A stretch of DNA of 64,000 bases from Bordetella pseudohinzii. GTDB taxonomy: Bacteria > Pseudomonadota > Gammaproteobacteria > Burkholderiales > Burkholderiaceae_B. Positions 3,551 to 15,199 of this stretch are shown here, piece after piece. How positions within the stretch are numbered: position 1 is the stretch's first letter; each line of letters starts with the position of its first letter. Made by a program: the position numbers and the translations under genes. The notes beneath the pieces were generated by a model. It was not told the DNA's origin, did no database searches, and was given only the letters and a program-made list of their open reading frames with translations. The stretch spans positions 1 to 64,000 of the forward strand of contig NZ_JHEP02000016.1 in NCBI RefSeq assembly GCF_000657795.2. Direction: 5' to 3'.

Positions 3551-5010
3551 CGCGCGAATTCGATGCCGTGGTGATCGGCGCCGGCCCGGCCGGCATGAGC
3601 GCGGCCATTCGCCTGCGCGAGCAGCATATGCGGGTGCTGGTGGTCGACGAGCAGCCCGCCCCGGGCGGCCAGATCTGGCGCGCGGTGGAAACCGTGGCGG
3701 GCACGCGCACCGGGCGCCTGCTGGGCGATGAATACCGCGCCGGCGCGGCCCTGGCCGAGCGTTTCCGCCAGTGCGGCGCCGTCTACGAGCCGCTGACCCA
3801 GGTCTGGCAGATCGAGAGCGGCTGGCAGGTCTATATGACGCAGGGCGGGCGCGCCCAGGCCGTGCGCGCGGGCCAGGTCCTGCTGGCCATCGGCGCGCAG
3901 GAGCGGCCCGCGCCTTTCCCCGGCTGGACCTTGCCGGGCGTGCTGACCGTGGGGGCGGCGCAGATTCTGCTCAAGACTTCCAATCAAGTGCCGGCCGGGC
4001 CGGTATGGGTGGCCGGCAGCGGTCCCTTGCCCCTGTTGTACATGGCGCAGCTGCTGCGCGCCGGCGGCCGGATCGCCGGCTGGCTGGACACGGCGGCGCC
4101 GGGCGCCTGGCGCCGCGCCTTGCCCTGGGCCGGCGCGGCCTGGGCTTCCTGGAGCGAGATCCGCAAAGGCCTGGGCTGGCTGCGCGAACTCAAGGCCGCC
4201 GGGGTCAGGCGCGTGCGCGGCGTGACGGCGCTGCGCGCGCTGGGCGAGGGCGCCCTGCGCGAGATCGAATACACGCTGGCCGACGGCAGCCCGCGGCGCG
4301 AAGCGGCCTCGGTGCTGCTGTCGCACGAGGGCGTGGTGCCCTCCATCCATATGACGCGCGCGCTGGACTGCGATCACCATTGGGATGCGCGCCTATCCTG
4401 CCTGGCGCCCGATCTGGACGATTGGGGCCAGACCAGCCGCGAAGGCGTGTATGTGGCCGGCGACGCGGCCGGCATCGGCGGGGCGCTGGCGGCCTGCGCG
4501 CGCGGCGAGCTGGCCGCGCTGGGCATGGCCCAACAGGCCGGGCGCATCACGGCGCGGGCGGCCGGGCAGGCCGCCGCCCCGCTGCGCGAAAAACTGCGCA
4601 GCCTGTTGCGCATCCGGCCCATGCTCGATGCGATCTACCCGCCGCGCGCCGGGATCTTCAACCCGCCGGACGAGACCATCGTGTGCCGCTGCGAAGAACT
4701 CACGGCCGGCGACATCCGCCGCGCCGCGCGCATCGGCCAGCCTGGACCCAATCAGGTCAAATCCTATACCCGCGCCGGCATGGGGCCCTGCCAGGGCCGC
4801 CAGTGCGGCTACACCATTGCCCACATTGTCGCCGCCGAAGAAAAACGGCCGGTCTCGGAAGTGGGTTTCTTGCGCATCCGGCCGCCGCTCAAGCCCCTGA
4901 CGCTGGGCGAACTGGCCTCGCTGGACATCGGCGGCGACGCGGCGGTGCTGGCCGGCGCGCCCGAGTCGCCGGGCGAAATGCCGGCTGGCGGCGGAGAGCC
5001 GCGGCCGTAA
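3547..5010 (+). CDS. FAD/NAD(P)-binding oxidoreductase with C-terminal BFD-like [2Fe-2S] domain (HcnB / alpha-subunit-like)
   Basis: A 487-residue pyridine-nucleotide-disulphide-type flavoprotein. GAGPAG at 11-16 binds FAD, and a second nucleotide-binding fold follows around VAGSGPLPLLYMA. A C-terminal BFD-like cluster domain has Cys380, Cys382, Cys415 and Cys420 (CRC and GPCQGRQC). This matches HcnB, OoxA and the alpha subunit of D-hydroxyproline dehydrogenase. The start at 3547 is fixed by the ATGA overlap with the upstream gene and by the Rossmann motif lying 10 residues in. It is the last gene of the operon. Confidence 0.9.
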   Translation: MTREFDAVVIGAGPAGMSAAIRLREQHMRVLVVDEQPAPGGQIWRAVETVAGTRTGRLLGDEYRAGAALAERFRQCGAVYEPLTQVWQIESGWQVYMTQGGRAQAVRAGQVLLAIGAQERPAPFPGWTLPGVLTVGAAQILLKTSNQVPAGPVWVAGSGPLPLLYMAQLLRAGGRIAGWLDTAAPGAWRRALPWAGAAWASWSEIRKGLGWLRELKAAGVRRVRGVTALRALGEGALREIEYTLADGSPRREAASVLLSHEGVVPSIHMTRALDCDHHWDARLSCLAPDLDDWGQTSREGVYVAGDAAGIGGALAACARGELAALGMAQQAGRITARAAGQAAAPLREKLRSLLRIRPMLDAIYPPRAGIFNPPDETIVCRCEELTAGDIRRAARIGQPGPNQVKSYTRAGMGPCQGRQCGYTIAHIVAAEEKRPVSEVGFLRIRPPLKPLTLGELASLDIGGDAAVLAGAPESPGEMPAGGGEPRP

Positions 5011-5145
5011 GCGCAGGGGGTTGTGGGTTGACCCCTCTGGGCAGGCCGCCGTGCGGCGAGCGGCAGATGCCAGCCATGGGCCGGAGGGTATATTTTGCTG
5101 TCCGGCCCCTCCGGGCCATGCCGTTCCCCGCACAAGGAGATCCCC

Positions 5146-5481
5146 ATGAAGATCCCGTTTCTGGTCCTGGCGTTGGCCGCCGCGGCGGCGCAGGCCGCGC
5201 CCGCCTTGCGCACGCCGCGGGTCGGTGTGTTGTGCGACAGCTATTTCTGCGCGGACCAGCAGGGGGTTTCCCGCGAGTTGACGCGCAAATACCTGGGCGC
5301 CGAGGCCGCCGCCCGCTTGCCGGCGCAAGGCGAATTCGACCGTGGCGCCTTCACTTTTGCCACAGGCCTGTTCTGCGACACCCGGGAGCGCGTGTGCCGC
5401 GAGGACCGCTATTTCGGCCCCGACGGCAAGCGCAGCGGGGCCGTGGATCCGGTTCATACCCGGCTGCTGTTTCCCCAATGA
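5146..5481 (+). CDS. YcgJ-family (Fels-1-prophage-protein-like) secreted protein
   Basis: A 111-residue protein with a Sec signal peptide (basic MK, then a hydrophobic alanine-rich stretch to about residue 19). The mature part carries four cysteines in GVLCDSYFC and LFCDTRERVC, plus SRELTRKYLG, which resembles E. coli YcgJ; one or two periplasmic disulfides are likely. Function in the family is unknown. The ATG at 5146 follows a good AAGGAG. A possible promoter -10 (TATATT, about 5090) lies 50 bp upstream. The name mentions a prophage, but nothing nearby is phage-like. Confidence 0.75.
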   Translation: MKIPFLVLALAAAAAQAAPALRTPRVGVLCDSYFCADQQGVSRELTRKYLGAEAAARLPAQGEFDRGAFTFATGLFCDTRERVCREDRYFGPDGKRSGAVDPVHTRLLFPQ

Positions 5482-5547
5482 AACGGCTCGGTTGGGGGCG
5501 GCGCAATTCAACGATGCATCCAGAAGGCATAGGCCTAAATTAATGGA

Positions 5548-5564
5548 ATACAATTAGTTTGTAT
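5548..5564. promoter_or_regulatory. Probable MarR operator (17-bp palindrome)
   Basis: ATACAATTAGTTTGTAT is a perfect 6-5-6 inverted repeat in an AT-rich island 20 bp before the MarR start at 5585. Size, symmetry and position are typical of a MarR autoregulatory operator overlapping its own promoter. The assignment is inferred from position. Confidence 0.7.
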
Positions 5565-5584
5565 GCCATCTAATTAAGCCTTCC

Positions 5585-6037
5585 ATGCCTGATTCCTCCT
5601 CCGCCGCGGCGCGCTTCGGCTCGCTGCTGTCCCAGGCCGCGCGCAGCTGGCGCCGCGCCGCTGATCGCCGCCTGCTTCCCTTTGGCCTGACCGACGCCAC
5701 CTGGCTGCCGCTGCTGCGTGTTTCGCGCGCCGGCCGCCCGATGCGTCAGAAAGAATTGGCCGCCTCGCTGGGCCTGGACGGCTCGTCCATCGTGCGGGTG
5801 CTCGATGCGCTGGAAGCTGGCGGCCTGTTGGCCCGGCGCGAGGATCCCGAGGACCGCCGCGCCAAGGCGCTGACCCTGACGCCGGCCGGCCAGGCCGTGG
5901 TCGAGCAGGTCGAGGCCGTGGCGCGCCAGGTGCGCGAGGTCGCGCTGGCCGATCTGCCGTCCGAGGAGGTCATCCGGGCCTGCGCCCTGCTCGAACGTAT
6001 CTGCGAGCGGCTGGACGCCGAAGGGGAGGGCGTATGA
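5585..6037 (+). CDS. MarR-family transcriptional regulator
   Basis: A 150-residue winged-helix repressor. The recognition helix region is QKELAASLGLDGSSIVRVLD (about 55-74), followed by the wing RREDPEDRRAKALTLT. It overlaps the downstream efflux pump by four bases (ATGA at 6034-6037), so it very probably controls that pump and itself through the palindrome at 5548-5564. MarR members of this type release DNA when bound by phenolic or other aromatic compounds; the ligand here is unknown. Confidence 0.92.
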   Translation: MPDSSSAAARFGSLLSQAARSWRRAADRRLLPFGLTDATWLPLLRVSRAGRPMRQKELAASLGLDGSSIVRVLDALEAGGLLARREDPEDRRAKALTLTPAGQAVVEQVEAVARQVREVALADLPSEEVIRACALLERICERLDAEGEGV

Positions 6038-7227
6038 ACACGTCCGTGCCCCGCGTGCAGCTATGGATGCTGGCCGTCTTCACGTTCAGCGGCACGCTGG
6101 CCATGCATATCTTCGTGCCGGCGCTCGCCATGGCCGGCAAGGATCTGGGAGCCAGCAATGCTTCCATGCAGATGACGGTCAGCCTCTACATCCTGGGGCT
6201 GGCCGGCGGCCAGCTGATCTACGGGCCCTTGTCGGATCGCTTTGGCCGGCGCCCGGTGCTCATGGGCGGCCTGGTCGTCTACACCCTGGCCGGCCTGGCC
6301 GCGGCCCTGGCGCCGGACGCCCATGCCCTGATCGCCGCCCGGCTCTTCCAGGCGCTGGGCGGCTGCGCGGGCCTGGTGCTGGCGCGCGCCATCGTGCGCG
6401 ACACCGCGACCGACAATTCGGCCGCCAAGCGCCTGGCGCTGATGAATATGATGGTGATGATTTCGCCGGCGCTCGCGCCCCTGGTGGGCAGCTTTCTGGC
6501 GGCCACGCTGGGCTGGCGCTCCATCCTGGCGGTGCTCTGCCTGCTGGGCGTGGCCAATTTGCTGCTGGCCTGGCGCAAGCTGCCCGAGACGCTGGTCCAG
6601 GCCGCGCCGCTGACGCCGGCCAGGCTGCTGCGCGACTATGGCGCGCTGTTCCGCTCGCGGCGCTTCGTGGGCTATACCCTGGGCGGCGGCTGCGCCACGA
6701 CGTCGATGTATGCCTTCGTGGCGAGCGCGCCCTTTATTTTCATTGACCAGCTGCACCGCCCCGAGCACGAGGTGGGCGTCTATCTGGCCCTCCTGGTCTC
6801 CGGCGTGTGGCTGGGCAATGCGGTGTGCGGCCGCCTGCTCAATGTCATCCCCATCGACCGCTTGCTGACGGCCGGCAATCTCTTGAGCGCCGCCAGCGTG
6901 CTCACGCTGCTGGGCTGTGTGCTGGCCGGGGTGATGGACACCACGCTCACCATGACGCTGATGTTTATTTTCTGCGTGGGCGCGGGCGCCTGTTCGCCGG
7001 CGGCGCTGACGCTTGCCATGAGCGTCAACCCGCAGGTGATAGGCTCGGCCTCCGGCCTGTACGGTTGCACCCAGATGGCCATCGGCGCGATCTGCACCAG
7101 CCTGGCGGGCCTGGGCGCCTCGCCGCTGCGCTCGGCCGTGCTGGTGATCGCCGTGGCCTGCGTGCTGTCGCAGCTGGCCTTGCGCATGGCGCAGTCCCGC
7201 CCCGGCGACCGCCAGGCCGCACATTGA
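6034..7227 (+). CDS. Bcr/CflA-type multidrug efflux MFS transporter
   Basis: A 397-residue inner-membrane protein with about 12 hydrophobic segments. The loop 2-3 signature is DRFGRRPVLMGG (about 67-78), and the transmembrane-4 motif ARAIVRDTA is characteristic of the DHA1 Bcr/CmlA drug:H+ antiporters. It is cotranscribed with the upstream MarR gene through an ATGA overlap. The role is presumably export of a toxic small molecule sensed by that regulator; the substrate is not predictable. Confidence 0.92.
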   Translation: MNTSVPRVQLWMLAVFTFSGTLAMHIFVPALAMAGKDLGASNASMQMTVSLYILGLAGGQLIYGPLSDRFGRRPVLMGGLVVYTLAGLAAALAPDAHALIAARLFQALGGCAGLVLARAIVRDTATDNSAAKRLALMNMMVMISPALAPLVGSFLAATLGWRSILAVLCLLGVANLLLAWRKLPETLVQAAPLTPARLLRDYGALFRSRRFVGYTLGGGCATTSMYAFVASAPFIFIDQLHRPEHEVGVYLALLVSGVWLGNAVCGRLLNVIPIDRLLTAGNLLSAASVLTLLGCVLAGVMDTTLTMTLMFIFCVGAGACSPAALTLAMSVNPQVIGSASGLYGCTQMAIGAICTSLAGLGASPLRSAVLVIAVACVLSQLALRMAQSRPGDRQAAH

Positions 7228-7296
7228 TTTTTACGGCGCCCGCATTGGCGTTATGCTCTGCGAGTCGCGTACCCCTGATGAGAGCTGGAGACAGAA

Positions 7297-8391
7297 ATGA
7301 GTCAAGACCAACCCAAATTCCTGCTTGAGCGTCACCCGAATCCGGTGGCGCCCGCCGAGCGCGAGCGCCTGCTCCAGGACCCGGGGTTTGGCCGGATTTT
7401 CACCGACCACATGGCCACCGTGCGCTACAGCGCCGACCGCGGCTGGCATGACGCCAAGATCGTCGCGCGCGGCGATCTGAACCTCAACCCCTCGACCCTG
7501 GTGCTGCATTACGCCCAGGAGATCTTCGAGGGGCTGAAGGCCTATCGCCTGCCCGACGGCGGCGCGACGCTGTTCCGCCCCGACGCCAATGCGCGGCGCT
7601 TTCGTAACTCGGCCGCCCGTCTGGCCATGGCCGAGCTGCCCGAGGACCTCTTCGTCGAATCCGTCGAGGCCCTGGTGCGCCTGGAGCGCGACTGGATCCC
7701 CTCGGCCGACGGCGCTTCGCTCTACCTGCGCCCCTTCATGATCGCCACCGAGGTCGCGCTGGGCACCAAGCCGTCGGCCGACTATCTGTACGCCGTCATC
7801 GCCTCGCCCGTGGGCGCTTACTTCAAGGGCGGCGGTTCGGCCGTCACCATCTGGGTCTCCGACAACTACACGCGCGCCGCGCCCGGCGGCACCGGCGCGG
7901 CCAAGTGCGGCGGCAATTACGCGGCCAGCCTCCAGGCCCAGGCCGAAGGCGCGCGCGAAGGCTGCGACCAGGTGGTCTTCCTCGATGCGGTCGAGCGCCG
8001 CTGGGTCGAGGAGCTGGGCGGCATGAATGTCTTCTTCGTCTTTGCCGACGGCTCGCTGCAGACGCCGCCCTTGACCGGCACCATCCTGCCCGGCATCACC
8101 CGCGACTCGCTGATCACCCTGGCCCGCGACCTGGGCATGACGGTGCGCGAAGAACCGTATTCCATCGACCAATGGCAGGCAGACGCCAAGAGCGGCAAGC
8201 TGGTCGAGTCCTTTGCCTGCGGCACGGCCGCCGTGGTCACGCCCATCGGCCAGGTCAAGGGCCGCAAGCACGGCTTTACCATCGGCACGGGCGGCGCGGG
8301 CGACGTCACGCTGCGCCTGAAGGCCGCCTTGCAGGACATCCAGCGCGGCCGCAGCGCCGACAAGCACGGCTGGCTGCACAAGGTGGACTGA
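7297..8391 (+). CDS. ilvE: Branched-chain amino acid aminotransferase (type II)
   Basis: A 364-residue PLP enzyme that interconverts leucine, isoleucine and valine with their 2-oxo acids. The length and sequence follow the longer type II (mitochondrial-like) branch rather than E. coli IlvE. EIFEGLKAYR lies near residue 70, and the PLP lysine is Lys203 in AAKCGGNYAASL. GTAAVVTPIG occurs late in the protein, near residue 310. It has a GGAGAC ribosome site and its own terminator at 8434-8464, so it appears monocistronic. Confidence 0.95.
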   Translation: MSQDQPKFLLERHPNPVAPAERERLLQDPGFGRIFTDHMATVRYSADRGWHDAKIVARGDLNLNPSTLVLHYAQEIFEGLKAYRLPDGGATLFRPDANARRFRNSAARLAMAELPEDLFVESVEALVRLERDWIPSADGASLYLRPFMIATEVALGTKPSADYLYAVIASPVGAYFKGGGSAVTIWVSDNYTRAAPGGTGAAKCGGNYAASLQAQAEGAREGCDQVVFLDAVERRWVEELGGMNVFFVFADGSLQTPPLTGTILPGITRDSLITLARDLGMTVREEPYSIDQWQADAKSGKLVESFACGTAAVVTPIGQVKGRKHGFTIGTGGAGDVTLRLKAALQDIQRGRSADKHGWLHKVD

Positions 8392-10425: not shown

Positions 10426-11022
10426 TCAGGGCGTGGATGCGGCCCGGCCCGGACGCCGCTTTGCCGGCTTGCCCGCGCTTGCCTTGGGCGTCGGCGCGGG
10501 CGCCGTGTTCAGGCGTTCCAGCCAGGACAGGGTTTCCACATAGGCCATGAACTGATGCAGATAGTCGGGCGAGAGCGCGCGCATGTGCGACAGCGCCCGG
10601 TGCACCAGGTGGTCGGAGTTCAAGGGGCCGGCGTTCTCCGGCAATTGCTCCAGGGATTGGCGCAGCTGCTGGTCGGCGCTCAGGCGCGTCCAGATGGCGC
10701 GGAAGGCGTCCAGCAGCGGCAGCTCGGGGTAGTGCTCGCGCAGCTCGCCGGGCGGCATCGCGGCGCGTTCGGCGATATGCGCCAGCAGGTCGGGCAGCGC
10801 GCTGGCGGCCGTGGCGGGCGGCTCGGCCGCGGCCGGCGTTTCGGCCAGGCGGGCATCATAGTCTTCGATGAGGCGCGCCAGCTTGTCTTCGACCACCTGG
10901 CGCGCGCCGCCCGTGAGCTGGCCGGCGCGCCGCGCCAGGGCCTCGAGCAGGGCGAAACGCACCGGGTCGGCGCGATGGGCGCCCTGCTCGCGCCAGGCCT
11001 GCAGGCGGGCCGCGCTATCCAC
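10426..11022 (-). CDS. DUF2894 domain-containing protein
   Basis: A 198-residue, alanine- and leucine-rich, probably helical cytosolic protein ending in a Lys/Arg/Pro-rich tail. It is the fourth gene of the DUF3348-DUF802-OmpA-DUF2894 operon, and DUF2894 proteins are known from this context. I place the start at GTG 11022, which overlaps the OmpA stop by eight bases (GTGGATAG); a longer reading frame upstream is wholly inside the OmpA gene. Function is unknown. It is presumably an accessory or regulator of the membrane motor encoded just before it. Confidence 0.8.
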   Translation of the reverse strand: MDSAARLQAWREQGAHRADPVRFALLEALARRAGQLTGGARQVVEDKLARLIEDYDARLAETPAAAEPPATAASALPDLLAHIAERAAMPPGELREHYPELPLLDAFRAIWTRLSADQQLRQSLEQLPENAGPLNSDHLVHRALSHMRALSPDYLHQFMAYVETLSWLERLNTAPAPTPKASAGKPAKRRPGRAASTP

Positions 11023-11671
11023 CCGCGCTGCCTTCGGGCTGGCCGGCGCCGGTCTGGCGCGGCACCGGCGCGATTTCCACGCGGCGATTCTTGGCCCGGC
11101 CCTCGGCATCGGCATTGGAGGCCACGGGCTGCTGCGCGCCGAAGGCCGCCGCGAACAGCGTGTTGGCGGGCACGCCGGCCTCGATCAGCGCGCGCGTGAC
11201 GGTCAGCGCGCGCTGGGCGGAGAGGTCCCAGTTGTCGGCAAAGCGCCGGTTGAACTCGCTGACGGGCTGGTTGTCGGTAAAGCCGCTGACCATCAGCATC
11301 TCGTCGCGGTTGCGCAGATAGGCCGTCAGCGGCGCGGCCAGGCTCTTGAGCACGTCGCGTCCTTCAGGCTGGAGCTGGTCGGAATTCAGCGCGAACAGCA
11401 CGCTGCCGCTGATGCCGATGCGGCCGTCGACCAGGGTCACGCGGCCGGCGGCCAGCGGGCCGGCCAGGGCCTGCTCCAGCGTCTCGCGCCGCTGCGTCTC
11501 GGCCTGGCGCTCCTTGACCTCTTCGTCCAGCTTGACCGAAAGCTGCAATTGCAGGCCGATGATGCCCACCAGGATGAGCACGAAGGCGCCCAGCAGCACC
11601 GACATCAGGTCGCCAAAAACCGCCCAGGCGGGGGCCGGGGTGTCCGGGCCGGCGTCGAGCTCGTCTCTCAT
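11015..11671 (-). CDS. OmpA/MotB-like peptidoglycan-binding stator subunit (ZorB-like)
   Basis: A 218-residue protein with a short cytosolic N-terminus and one transmembrane helix (about 16-44) preceded by FGDLMSVLL; Asp21 sits where MotB and ZorB carry the proton-binding aspartate. A coiled stretch (45-75) and a C-terminal OmpA domain follow, with SGFTDNQPV, NWDLSAQRALTV and NRRVEI, the peptidoglycan-binding residues. It overlaps the MotA-like gene by four bases (ATGA at 11668-11671). Together they should form an ion-driven inner-membrane stator anchored to the cell wall. Defence, motility or another role is not shown. Confidence 0.88.
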   Translation of the reverse strand: MRDELDAGPDTPAPAWAVFGDLMSVLLGAFVLILVGIIGLQLQLSVKLDEEVKERQAETQRRETLEQALAGPLAAGRVTLVDGRIGISGSVLFALNSDQLQPEGRDVLKSLAAPLTAYLRNRDEMLMVSGFTDNQPVSEFNRRFADNWDLSAQRALTVTRALIEAGVPANTLFAAAFGAQQPVASNADAEGRAKNRRVEIAPVPRQTGAGQPEGSAGG

Positions 11672-14493
11672 GCGGCCTCGGCGCCGTCGCGGTTGAGCTG
11701 CCGCAGTTCATGCATGATCTGCTTTTGCGACAGCAGGGAAAGATCGACGACCTCGCGGGCCTGGGCCACGTAATAGGCCAGCTGCTCATCGCTGCGGGCC
11801 AGCGACTTGGCCAGCGCCGATTCGATGCGCTCCAGCTGGGCGACCAGCTTGACGTTGGTTTCGTCGAACAGGCGCACGGCCGCGCCCAGGGCTTCGCCCA
11901 GGCTTGCGACCTCGACCGCGCTGCCGGTGACCTGGTCGGCCACGGCGCCCAGCTTGCCGGTCTCGCCTTCGACGTGTTCAGTGAAACGCCGGCCCACGCG
12001 CTCGAGCAGTTCGGACGAGGAGGCCACCAGCGCATCCACCGCGCCGCGCTGTTCGTGGCTGGCGTGGTTGATGGCCTTGAGCAGTGTATCCACGGTGTCC
12101 AGGAGATGGCCGCGCTCCTGCAGCATGGCGTTGTCGCGCGCCATGCTGTCGGAGAGCTGCTGGCGCAATTCGGCCAGCATGCCGGCGGCGGCCTTGGGCG
12201 CTTGCGAGGCGGCTTCCAGCAGGCGCTCGATCTCGGCGATCATGCGCTCGGACTGCGCCGCGGCCTGGGTCGTGAGGCCGCCGACGGCGGCCGAGAAGTT
12301 GTCGCAGATCTCCTGCTGACGCGCCAGGGTGCGGTTGCCGGTGTCTTCCCATTCGGCGCGTAGCGCCGCGGCCACGCCGGCCAGCGATTCGGTCCAGGCG
12401 GCCAGGCGCGCCTCGTCGCGCGCCGCCAGTTCGCCGTGCAGGCGGCCATGGGCCTGATCGACCGTGGCCAGCAGCGAGGCCGAGTGGCCTTCGAAGCGTT
12501 CGGCCGCCGCATCCAGGGCGGCGCGGTGGGCGTCGGCCAGCGCGCCGCTGGCCGCATCGTGGCGCGCCAGGGCTTCGTGCCAGGCCTGGGCCAGTTGCTC
12601 GGTGGTCTGGTCCATGCGGGCGGCGACCTGGTCGACCAGACCGGCCGAACGGGTCTCGAACGCCGTCGCGAAGCCATCCAGCGTCTCGCGCAGCCGCGCG
12701 GCCAGCTGGGCCTGGCCCTGCGCCTGGTCGGCCAGGGCGGCCTGCCAGCCCCGCAGGGCGCCGGCCGTGCCTTCGGAGACGGCCAGGGCCGCGCCGTCCA
12801 GGCGGGCGGCGATGTTGTCGACGAGGCTGCCGGAGCGCGCCTCGAAGGTGGCGCAGAAGTGTTCCAGCGCGGCGCGCAGCCCCTGGGCCGCGTCCTGCTG
12901 GCCGCGCTGCTGCTCGCCCAGCGCCGCCTGCCAGGCGCCCAGGGCGGACTGCACATTGCCGGCGATGGCGCCGGCCGTGCCGTCCAGGCGCAGGCCCACG
13001 CTGTCGACCAGGGCCGTGGCGCGGCTGTCGAAGCCCGTGCTGAATTGCTCCAGGGCCTGGCGCAGGTCCCCGGTCAGGGCGGCCTGGGCCGTCTGCTGTT
13101 CGGCCAGCGCGGCCTTCCAGATGTCGGCCACGCCGGCCGTGGTGGCCGCGACGCTGTCGGTGGTGCTGGTCAGGCGAGCGGCCACGTCGTCCAGCAGGCG
13201 GGCCGAGCGGGTTTCGAAGGTGGCGGCAAAGCGGCCCAGCGCGGCGTCGAGCGCTTCGGCCTGGGCGGCCTGTCCCTGGCGCTGCCGGTCCAGCGCCTCG
13301 CTCCAGGCCTGGGCGGTGGCCTGCGAGCTGGCGGCCAGGGCCGAGGTGGTGTGCTCCAGGCGGGACGAGACATCGGTCAGCAGGGCCGAGGCGCGCTGCT
13401 CGAAGCCGGCGGCGAAGTGTTCCAGCGCTCCGCGCAGGTCCTGGTTGAGCGCCTGGTTGGCCGTGGCCTGGCCGGCCAGGGCCTGGGTCCAGTGGCCGGC
13501 CAGGGCCGCGCTGGTGTGTTCCAGGCGCTCGGACAGGCGGTCCATCTGCTGCTGCAGGGCCTGGGTGACGGTGTCGCGCCAGGCGGTGGTCTCGCGCGCC
13601 AGCGTCTGCATGGCGCTCTGCACGGCGGGCTGGATGGCCGCGCCGGCGGCCTGGGCGCTTTCGGCCACGCTGTGCGTGAGCGCGGTTTCCACCGAATCGG
13701 CCAGCCGGCCGTAGACGGCCTCGGTCTTGCCGTGGAAGGCTTCCTGGCCGGCCAGCAGGCGCTGGTTCAGGGCCTGGCTCTGGCTTTCCATCGCGGCCAT
13801 CATGGCCGCCAGTCGGTCGGCCAGCAGCGGCAGGGCCTCGGCCTGGCCGCGCAGCAGCTTGAAGCTTTCTTCGCGCTGGTGGGCCAGCGAATAGCCGCGC
13901 AGCGTCGTGGCGGCCTTGGTGTCGAGGTATTCGCCGGCCTGCAGGCGGGCGCGGCGGCACAGGGCCGACAGCAGGCCCAGCATGGCCGAGGCCGCGACCC
14001 CGGCCACCGAGGTGCCGAAGGCAAAGCCCAGGCCCTTGACCGGCGCGGCCAGCGAGGCGCGCATGGCGGTCAGGTCGGTGGCGCTTTCGAGGGCCAGGCC
14101 CGTGCCGCGCAGCGTCGCCACCATGCCCAGGAAGGTCCCCAACATGCCCAAGAGCACCAGCAGGCCCACCAGATAGGGGGTGAGGGCGGGGCCGGGCAGG
14201 CCGGCGCGTTCGCCCTCGATGCGCAGCCTGGCCGCATTGCGCAGGCTGGGATGCAGGCCGTCCAGCCAGCTGCCCAGCTGCGCCGGCGCCTCGGCCAGGC
14301 CCTCCAGGGCGCGCGTCAGGCCGCGCGTGGCCTGCTGGTAGCGCAGCAGTTCCAGGGCGCCGGCCAGGTAGCAGACCCCGATCAGGGCGGTGATGGACAG
14401 GGCCAGCGGATTGCTGCCGATGTAGCCGGCGCCTATCCAGCCGATGGCGGCCAAGCCCGCGAGGAAGACGATGAGGGGGAGGATGCGAGTCAT
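11668..14493 (-). CDS. DUF802 protein: MotA/ExbB-like membrane domain with long repeat tail (ZorA-like)
   Basis: A 941-residue protein. Two hydrophobic helices (about 4-22 and 30-50) and a MotA/TolQ-type pair follow: GMLGTFLGMVATLRG (115-129) and KGLGFAFGTSVAGVAAS (about 150-166). The rest is a very long, alanine/glutamine-rich, predicted helical tail. From residue 357 there are five copies of a unit exactly 62 residues long, each starting LEHFAATFE-like and containing R(S/A)..LLDDVAARLD and W..AL..Q. As I recall, DUF802 is itself described as a repeated region. The ATG at 14493 was chosen because the membrane helix starts at once; an upstream ATG at 14556 lies within the preceding gene. The architecture is that of ZorA. 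Confidence 0.88.
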   Translation of the reverse strand: MTRILPLIVFLAGLAAIGWIGAGYIGSNPLALSITALIGVCYLAGALELLRYQQATRGLTRALEGLAEAPAQLGSWLDGLHPSLRNAARLRIEGERAGLPGPALTPYLVGLLVLLGMLGTFLGMVATLRGTGLALESATDLTAMRASLAAPVKGLGFAFGTSVAGVAASAMLGLLSALCRRARLQAGEYLDTKAATTLRGYSLAHQREESFKLLRGQAEALPLLADRLAAMMAAMESQSQALNQRLLAGQEAFHGKTEAVYGRLADSVETALTHSVAESAQAAGAAIQPAVQSAMQTLARETTAWRDTVTQALQQQMDRLSERLEHTSAALAGHWTQALAGQATANQALNQDLRGALEHFAAGFEQRASALLTDVSSRLEHTTSALAASSQATAQAWSEALDRQRQGQAAQAEALDAALGRFAATFETRSARLLDDVAARLTSTTDSVAATTAGVADIWKAALAEQQTAQAALTGDLRQALEQFSTGFDSRATALVDSVGLRLDGTAGAIAGNVQSALGAWQAALGEQQRGQQDAAQGLRAALEHFCATFEARSGSLVDNIAARLDGAALAVSEGTAGALRGWQAALADQAQGQAQLAARLRETLDGFATAFETRSAGLVDQVAARMDQTTEQLAQAWHEALARHDAASGALADAHRAALDAAAERFEGHSASLLATVDQAHGRLHGELAARDEARLAAWTESLAGVAAALRAEWEDTGNRTLARQQEICDNFSAAVGGLTTQAAAQSERMIAEIERLLEAASQAPKAAAGMLAELRQQLSDSMARDNAMLQERGHLLDTVDTLLKAINHASHEQRGAVDALVASSSELLERVGRRFTEHVEGETGKLGAVADQVTGSAVEVASLGEALGAAVRLFDETNVKLVAQLERIESALAKSLARSDEQLAYYVAQAREVVDLSLLSQKQIMHELRQLNRDGAEAA
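12496..13425 (-). repeat. Five 186-bp in-frame repeats in the DUF802 gene
   Basis: Units begin at 13425, 13239, 13053, 12867 and 12681 (minus strand), each 186 bp or 62 codons with no length variation. DNA identity is only moderate, so the periodicity is kept at protein level: a LE.F...FE.R start, LLDDVAARLD in the middle and WQAAL.EQ..GQ before the end. A diverged half-unit precedes the first copy. Constant spacing suggests a rigid helical rod. Confidence 0.85.
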
Positions 14494-14503
14494 GAGGGCC
14501 TGA

Positions 14504-15199
14504 TTAGCGGGCGCGAAGGGCCGCAAGCAGCCCCTCGACCGGTTGTAGTCGAACATCCAGTTCGGCGAGCAATACGCTCTGCATGTCCTTGCGGAAACGC
14601 TCTAGCCAGCCGCCCCGGCGGGCGTCGGGCTGTTCCGCCGGCGCGGCCGCTTCGGCCTCGCGCAGGCGGTTGAAATGCTTTTCGAGCAGCCCCGGCACGG
14701 CCGCCAGCAGGCTGCGCTCTCGCGGCAGCAGGCCGCGCTCCATGATGGCGTCCATCACGGCCAGCTGCGTGAGCGCCGGCGTGCTGGCCGCCAGCGTGGC
14801 GCGCAAGCGCGTGCGCAGGTTGCCGATGCGCGTCTCCATGGTCTGCTGCAGGGCCAGGTAAAGCTGCCGGTAGGTCTTGTAGTCGTCTTCGGCGGGCGCG
14901 TCCTTGGCCTGGAACGGCGAGGGGCCGCGCTGCTTGATGTCGCGGGCGATGGCGTTGGACAGGCCGGCGCGCAGCAGGATGAGGTCGCGCTCCTGGACGC
15001 GGTCCAGGCGGGCCTCGCCGGGCACGGGCTTGCTGTTGAGCGCCGCGGCCAAGGCGAGGCCGTCGGTCCAGCCCAGCCATTGGCTGAGATGGTCCGACAG
15101 GAGTTGGCCGGATTCGGGAACATCGGCGTCGGTCAATCGGGTCAGCAGACGGATGAAAGCCGGTCCGCCGACGCCGGGGCGCCGGGACGATTGCACCAT
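14504..15199 (-). CDS. DUF3348 domain-containing protein
   Basis: A 231-residue, probably cytosolic, helix-rich protein and the first gene of the four-gene motor operon (10 bp before the MotA-like gene). A conserved start FIRLLTRLTDADVPES leads into LSDHLSQWLGWTDGLALA. A central basic region contains LRTRLRATLAASTPALTQLA. DUF3348 is known almost only from Betaproteobacteria and always, as far as I recall, beside DUF802. Function is unknown. It has no membrane segment or nuclease motif that would match the ZorC-E effectors of Zorya. Confidence 0.85.
   Translation of the reverse strand: MVQSSRRPGVGGPAFIRLLTRLTDADVPESGQLLSDHLSQWLGWTDGLALAAALNSKPVPGEARLDRVQERDLILLRAGLSNAIARDIKQRGPSPFQAKDAPAEDDYKTYRQLYLALQQTMETRIGNLRTRLRATLAASTPALTQLAVMDAIMERGLLPRERSLLAAVPGLLEKHFNRLREAEAAAPAEQPDARRGGWLERFRKDMQSVLLAELDVRLQPVEGLLAALRAR

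Follow-up and report, generated by a model that had tools for sequence, protein, structure and literature searches.

The four-gene operon between positions 10426 and 15199 of the window, as the whole analysed stretch of 64,000 nucleotides is called here, raises the question of what a MotA/TolQ-type stator protein with a giant tail may drive when no flagellar family is found among the neighbouring genes examined. The initial annotation had proposed four adjoining genes, a tail of about 770 residues and a ZorAB-like motor associated with different partners. The genes indeed adjoin, all of them on the minus strand and with intergenic spacings of +10, -4 and -101 nt, whereas the identity of the partners leads to a different conclusion from the one first drawn. 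The host is a Bordetella close to B. hinzii, with 97% identity between the DUF3348 protein and its counterpart in B. hinzii LMG 13501. GC content is 70-74% in the operon and 67-72% in its surroundings, and no tRNA was found within the window.

The operon is a Zorya type III system with the order ZorG-ZorA-ZorB-ZorF, and all four proteins match the PADLOC-DB models of this type (E 1e-71 to 0). The first gene (14504 to 15199) encodes a DUF3348 protein of 231 aa (PF11828, E 4e-87; PADLOC ZorG3, E 1.6e-86), followed by ZorA3 (11668 to 14493; 941 aa from the better start and 962 aa from a longer one; PADLOC ZorA3, E 0), by ZorB3 of the MotB/OmpA type (11015 to 11671; 218 aa; PADLOC ZorB3, E 1.2e-114; NF006547, E 4e-115) and by a DUF2894 protein (10426 to 11115; 229 aa; PF11445, E 4e-53; PADLOC ZorF3, E 1.1e-71). 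Type III is recognised by ZorA3 and ZorB3 matches, by DUF3348 and DUF2894 genes flanking zorAB, and by an ion-site aspartate in ZorB together with Ser and Thr residues in the ZorA channel, all of which were found here. According to the available text of PMC8565338, which defined this type in 2021 on the basis of 6,401 cases, the system of Stenotrophomonas nitritireducens lowered phage plating in E. coli. Because the same gene set was published then, the system is not new, and the reading as a novel ZorAB system with unknown partners has to be rejected; the analogy to ZorAB stands, but the supposedly different partners are those already published for Zorya type III. As regards their names, DUF3348 is ZorF and DUF2894 is ZorG in the accessible parts of PMC8565338 and PMC11890865. 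The labels of PADLOC-DB 2.0.0 are reversed with respect to those papers (DUF3348 as ZorG3 and DUF2894 as ZorF3), and it is in the PADLOC-DB sense that ZorG (DUF3348) and ZorF (DUF2894) are used throughout this text. The overlap of 101 nt between zorB and the DUF2894 gene is probably a start-codon artefact, since a GTG at 11022, the likelier start, gives a protein of 198 aa and an overlap of 8 nt, as in 8 distinct relatives and in a database entry of 198 aa.

The order G-A-B-F on a single strand is kept in 49 of 52 loci, the remaining three being cut by a contig end, so that the proposed co-occurrence of DUF3348 and DUF2894 holds in every uncut locus (49/49). These 52 loci comprise the window and 51 fetched ones, some fetched twice, and yield 45 distinct ZorA and 45 distinct ZorB sequences. 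A second set, in which 4 of the 43 entries repeat loci of the first, shows the same order with all four genes in 43/43 entries, 22 of them belonging to one genus and 21 to another. This conservation across all uncut loci indicates that the grouping is not due to chance. In three of the 49 loci (L085, L099 and L102), in-frame stops near the ends of the presumed ZorF leave its borders unsure, and they were omitted from the ZorF set.

Conservation of the ion site is equally strict. The aspartate noted at position 21 of ZorB (codon at 11609 to 11611, minus strand) is invariant in 45/45 distinct ZorB, and an Asp in a GDLM, SDLM or ADLM motif near the ZorB start is present in 43/43 entries of the second set. 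In ZorA, the channel region (residues 104-181; 13951 to 14184, minus strand) keeps Thr120, Thr161, Ser162 and Ser169 in 45/45 distinct ZorA, and its GT and TS motifs align with those of the type I ZorA of structure 8VVN. Moreover, a profile of 19 ZorA sequences found chain C of 8VVN as the sole solved chain at E <= 0.01 (E 1.9e-6), which, together with the ZorA3 and ZorB3 matches, bears out the ZorAB-like nature of the stator. The OmpA domain of ZorB, of the peptidoglycan-binding type (residues 92-196; 11084 to 11398, minus strand; PF00691, E 1.5e-19), has Asp133 and Arg154 invariant in 45/45. Residue 131, within the G-x-T-D motif of this domain (window positions 11273-11284), is Phe (42) or Tyr (3), the usual residue at that position being presumably His.

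The ZorA protein is built in three parts: a channel region, which is the most conserved, a variable middle, and a last portion of about 190 residues that is conserved again. The tail, first estimated at some 770 residues, is indeed giant, with about 745. It comprises a stalk (about residues 196-751; 12241 to 13908) and a tip (about residues 752-935; 11689 to 12240), both on the minus strand. In the 45 distinct ZorA the conservation of the tip block is 0.62-0.86 versus 0.40-0.47 immediately before it; 33 tip positions are conserved at >=95%, and the peak lies at residues 900-926 (11716-11796), where 24 of 27 positions reach >=85%. The stalk of the window ZorA carries diverged repeat units of 62 residues, with self-similarity peaks at 62, 124 and 186, matches to PF05650 (DUF802) in 6 stretches, and prolines beyond residue 200 at 222, 289 and 766 only. 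TRF detected no long-period array in the window DNA, which indicates that the stalk units in the window are old. The hydrophobic period is 3.640 residues over the 45 ZorA, 3.645 in the window sequence and 3.645 in 19 array-free tails, and a value of about 3.64, between 3.5 and 3.67, is the one expected of a helical bundle that is almost straight. In a locus of the same family with a ZorA-I-like protein (L135), the sole usable frame among 5 such loci, the tail period is 3.60, a single value that supports no contrast with type I.

The length of this stalk is far from constant. Among 84 distinct sequences ZorA spans 555-1229 residues in total, and the part beyond residue 195, tip included, ranges from 360 residues in the shortest to 1034 in the longest. 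Tandem arrays occur in 62 of these 84 proteins, at an array score threshold of 200 chosen by us, with 15 unit lengths (22, 29, 40, 51, 55, 62, 69, 73, 76, 80, 87, 95, 102, 113 and 131 residues). At 3.64 residues per turn none of the 15, which are not all independent, departs by more than 0.15 turn from a complete number of turns, a fit that 0 of 200,000 random draws equalled. When the period is estimated solely from the unit lengths, it comes out at 3.641. In a smaller set of 13 lengths, with the dependent ones removed, 1 of 200,000 random sets was as good. The helical register itself raises similarity scores, as seen in a weak offset of 55 in 12 of 22 array-free tails. Independent support for a variation in unit steps comes from 10 within-genus pairs, picked by length from two genera and aligned with a high gap-opening cost, each of which differs by a single gap of at least 7 residues (131, 131, 102, 22, 87, 87, 87, 174, 174 and 113).

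A joint reading of these data, which we regard as probable, is that of a Zorya type III operon in which an ion-driven ZorAB would use the ZorA rod as a drive shaft, the tip acting on ZorF and ZorG to block phages. Homology to types I and II suggests that two ZorB, anchored to peptidoglycan, are surrounded by five ZorA, and that ions passing Asp21 rotate the ZorA ring. The anatomy of ZorA suggests that the five stalks may form one continuous helical rod carrying rotation or torsion into the cytoplasm. The length of the rod would be free provided that the helical register is kept, and the almost threefold variation in tail length with its register maintained argues for a shaft instead of a ruler. 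The conserved tip would then meet ZorF and/or ZorG, helical proteins that would relay the signal, the most likely outcome being that phages are blocked after infection disturbs the envelope. An anti-phage activity of the Bordetella operon may be presumed by analogy with the Stenotrophomonas relative for which it was shown (available text of PMC8565338). Several points count against this reading. First, ZorB of type III carries Phe or Tyr at position 131, where type I has His186 (positions equated by the H-T-D motif, not by alignment), a residue needed for peptidoglycan binding and defence according to the accessible part of PMC11890865. Second, infection of B. cenocepacia altered just one or two genes at the start of its Zorya III operon (PMC12584637). 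Third, an almost complete presence in three genera, with no clear defence genes beside the loci analysed, is not what typical defence genes show.

This last point leads to the best surviving alternative, which we still hold to be unlikely: an envelope motor of long residence that would mainly serve a purpose other than phage defence, for example the sensing or relief of envelope stress, phage protection being a side effect of expression in E. coli. The distribution of the system, followed with DUF3348 as a marker and one genome per species, speaks on both sides. An even sample of the class has the marker in 7 of 232 genomes, and a sample of the order has it in 15 of 250. Among these 15, the orphan DUF3348 matches in L023 and L024 were rejected as coiled-coil false hits within HlyD-family secretion proteins (HlyD_3, E 2e-19 each), which leaves 13 credible cases. 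The same model weakly matches HlyD-family proteins in L197 and L198 as well, a source of false hits. Within the family, 51 of 151 genomes and 15 of 42 genera have the marker, which is near-fixed in the genera taken to be Achromobacter (41/41 species genomes) and Paraburkholderia (55/58) and in Bordetella (10/13). In the same Achromobacter genomes PF02384, a DNA methylase family common in restriction systems, appears in 27 of 41, a thin control as a single family. In contrast, a more distant genus shows DUF3348 in only 6 of 11 genomes, one of these being a fragment at a contig end, and 27 of the 42 family genera gave no match in the genomes sampled. Zorya III is thus unevenly spread across genera, yet close to fixation within some of them; near-fixation in some genera points to a long-resident function, and patchiness elsewhere argues against a universal one. 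In the consulted parts of the literature, the PADLOC authors describe defence systems as patchy at genus level (PMC8565338), and the distribution of Zorya subtypes is called typical of anti-phage systems (PMC11890865). As for ZorA of type I (NF033914), 0 of 151 family genomes gave a match above the cut-off among the <=7 candidates scored per genome, and weaker matches, partly located at type III loci, appeared in 34 of 151. The L135 protein (genome G497) is a type I relative just below the curated cut-off (184.9 of 190 bits).

Inheritance data are similarly divided with respect to an envelope motor. Distances between Zor proteins track those of gyrB in 39 genomes (Pearson 0.72 for ZorG, 0.71 for ZorB and 0.67 for ZorA) as well as in 27 family genomes (0.74, 0.57 and 0.57, respectively), with 0 of 1000 permutations as high in each case; two of 41 genomes (G519 and G577) had been dropped, their operon running off the contig. 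Moreover, a search of 50,697 phage records with ZorG gave no match, no ZorB relative was found in viral contigs by exact peptide patterns, and the 27 matching records among 72,556 plasmids all correspond to replicons of at least 366 kb, many of them chromid-sized. However, 7 of these 27 are predicted to be mobilizable, and in a joint Zor tree with 23 supported branches, 15 are common with gyrB and 6 conflict with it, as in the case of two same-order genomes, one of them Paraburkholderia, that group with Achromobacter. Distances that follow gyrB together with some conflicting branches indicate mostly within-genus inheritance with occasional passage between families.

The neighbourhood also bears on this alternative. 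The window operon lies between DUF1090, FUSC, MarR and ABC exporter genes on one side and flavin reductase, HPP/CBS, aminotransferase, MFS and MarR genes on the other, with no flagellar family among the neighbours examined, in keeping with what had been noted. An MFS-type gene family downstream of the operon is common to 18 of 22 Achromobacter loci, and none of 10 neighbours sampled at one Achromobacter and one Paraburkholderia locus matches a PADLOC model at E <= 1e-5, both of which would suit a resident motor. Three of the 9 window neighbours do match PADLOC-DB models, which would speak for a defence context, namely a CARF model for the two MarR proteins (E 1.6e-4 and 8.5e-4), and mad3 (3.5e-30) plus three other models for the ABC exporter, but these neighbours are read as sharing ABC or MarR-type domains and not as defence genes. 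Most of the window's neighbours are kept in 3 of 8 other Bordetella loci. Another Bordetella genome (G622, locus L196, about 4700-8050) carries, between regions matching the window flanks, a decayed operon in which a ZorA stretch is free of stops, ZorB is reduced to residues 1-112 and ZorF to residues 165-229, and ZorG is absent. Remnants at the same place indicate that the operon was once present and then decayed, so that it can be lost, which, like the phage blocking by the cloned relative (available text of PMC8565338), weighs against this alternative.

If phage defence is the outcome, as in the preferred drive-shaft reading, the way in which the two partners contribute becomes the next question. 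DUF3348 and DUF2894 are families without an assigned function in Pfam, and their AlphaFold2 models consist of helices only (ZorG, mean pLDDT 75.3 and pTM 0.72; ZorF, mean pLDDT 76.7 and pTM 0.42). No Foldseek match at E <= 0.001 was obtained for either of them, and any role assigned to the pair is for this reason a guess. ZorG shows a weak match to a DnaG-DnaB-binding family, below its cut-off (E 0.034). In five genomes (G506, G556, G489, G567 and G529) the DUF3348 match is split into 2-3 pieces within longer frames of 305-404 aa, as if ZorG had insertions. Pfam and PADLOC profiles detected no nuclease or helicase family among the operon partners, nor any recognised catalytic domain in ZorF or ZorG. 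Such partners would fit an abortive-infection mechanism, which we judge improbable, where the opening of ZorAB would leak ions and collapse the membrane potential, ZorF and ZorG would only gate it and the rod would be passive. In the same direction, the 2021 authors suggest that ZorF and ZorG regulate ZorAB (available text of PMC8565338). However, a passive rod would need neither a helical register nor a conserved tip, and defence by types I and II depends on the extension of ZorA, as reported in the accessible part of PMC11890865. A stalk working as a length ruler tuned to cell dimensions, which the discrete length steps inside two genera might suggest, is very improbable given total lengths of 555-1229 residues and whole-unit differences between species of a single genus, which leave no fixed length to be measured.

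The drive-shaft reading can be taken a step further, as a possible though doubtful proposal: in several Burkholderiales genera Zorya III may be a vertically kept core envelope motor instead of an exchangeable defence island, with a ZorA drive shaft whose length would evolve freely by complete helical turns, while the channel at one end and the tip at the other, to which a conserved partner docks, stay fixed. If true, the whole-turn rule would be a genomic signature of torque transmission by a rod. The data offer testable mechanics for Zorya III, in which the stalk might lengthen or shorten only by complete turns and docking would probably take place at the tip. They also cast doubt on treating Zorya III as an ordinary accessory defence system. 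No description of the unit-step variation of the stalk or of the near-fixation was found in the literature searched, mostly outside subscription journals.

Compared with known systems, the operon shares with flagellar MotAB/PomAB a MotB-like OmpA domain and a stator channel with an Asp, but it differs from them in its very long ZorA tail and in the absence of flagellar genes among the neighbours examined. The Pfam MotA_ExbB model (PF01618) does not match the present ZorA, the kinship of which becomes visible through ZorA profiles and 8VVN. Four other MotA_ExbB-type proteins are encoded in the same genome (L001-L004). Among other stators, the A subunits of TolQR and ExbBD are not known to carry a long tail. 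According to the consulted portion of PMC12505986, these are related ion-driven stators, and the B subunits of such generic ion transporters lack an OmpA-type domain.

The closest relatives outside type III are Zorya I (ZorABCD) and II (ZorABE), which likewise have a ZorA channel with a rod and a ZorB with an ion-site Asp and an OmpA-type domain. In these two types ZorA5B2 structures are known, and the Asp, peptidoglycan binding and the ZorA rod are needed for defence (available text of PMC11890865). Unlike them, and as first noted, the present operon is devoid of ZorC, ZorD and ZorE, none of which was matched in the operon or in its 9 neighbours, and its ZorA scores far under the curated cut-offs of both type I (24.8 of 190 bits) and type II (29.8 of 100 bits); the NCBIfam model antiphage_ZorA_2 likewise matches below its cut-off (E 3e-7). 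With Zorya type III, on the other hand, the gene content is identical, the same four families adjoining with DUF3348 and DUF2894 around zorAB, although the published system that was tested comes from Stenotrophomonas and the present one from Bordetella. The component sizes of types I and II are well conserved within each type, according to the accessible part of PMC11890865, whereas the 84 distinct ZorA of type III extend over 555-1229 aa. What is less ordinary in this system, and worth following, is thus its near-fixation in some genera together with a stalk that changes its length in steps of approximately whole helical turns.
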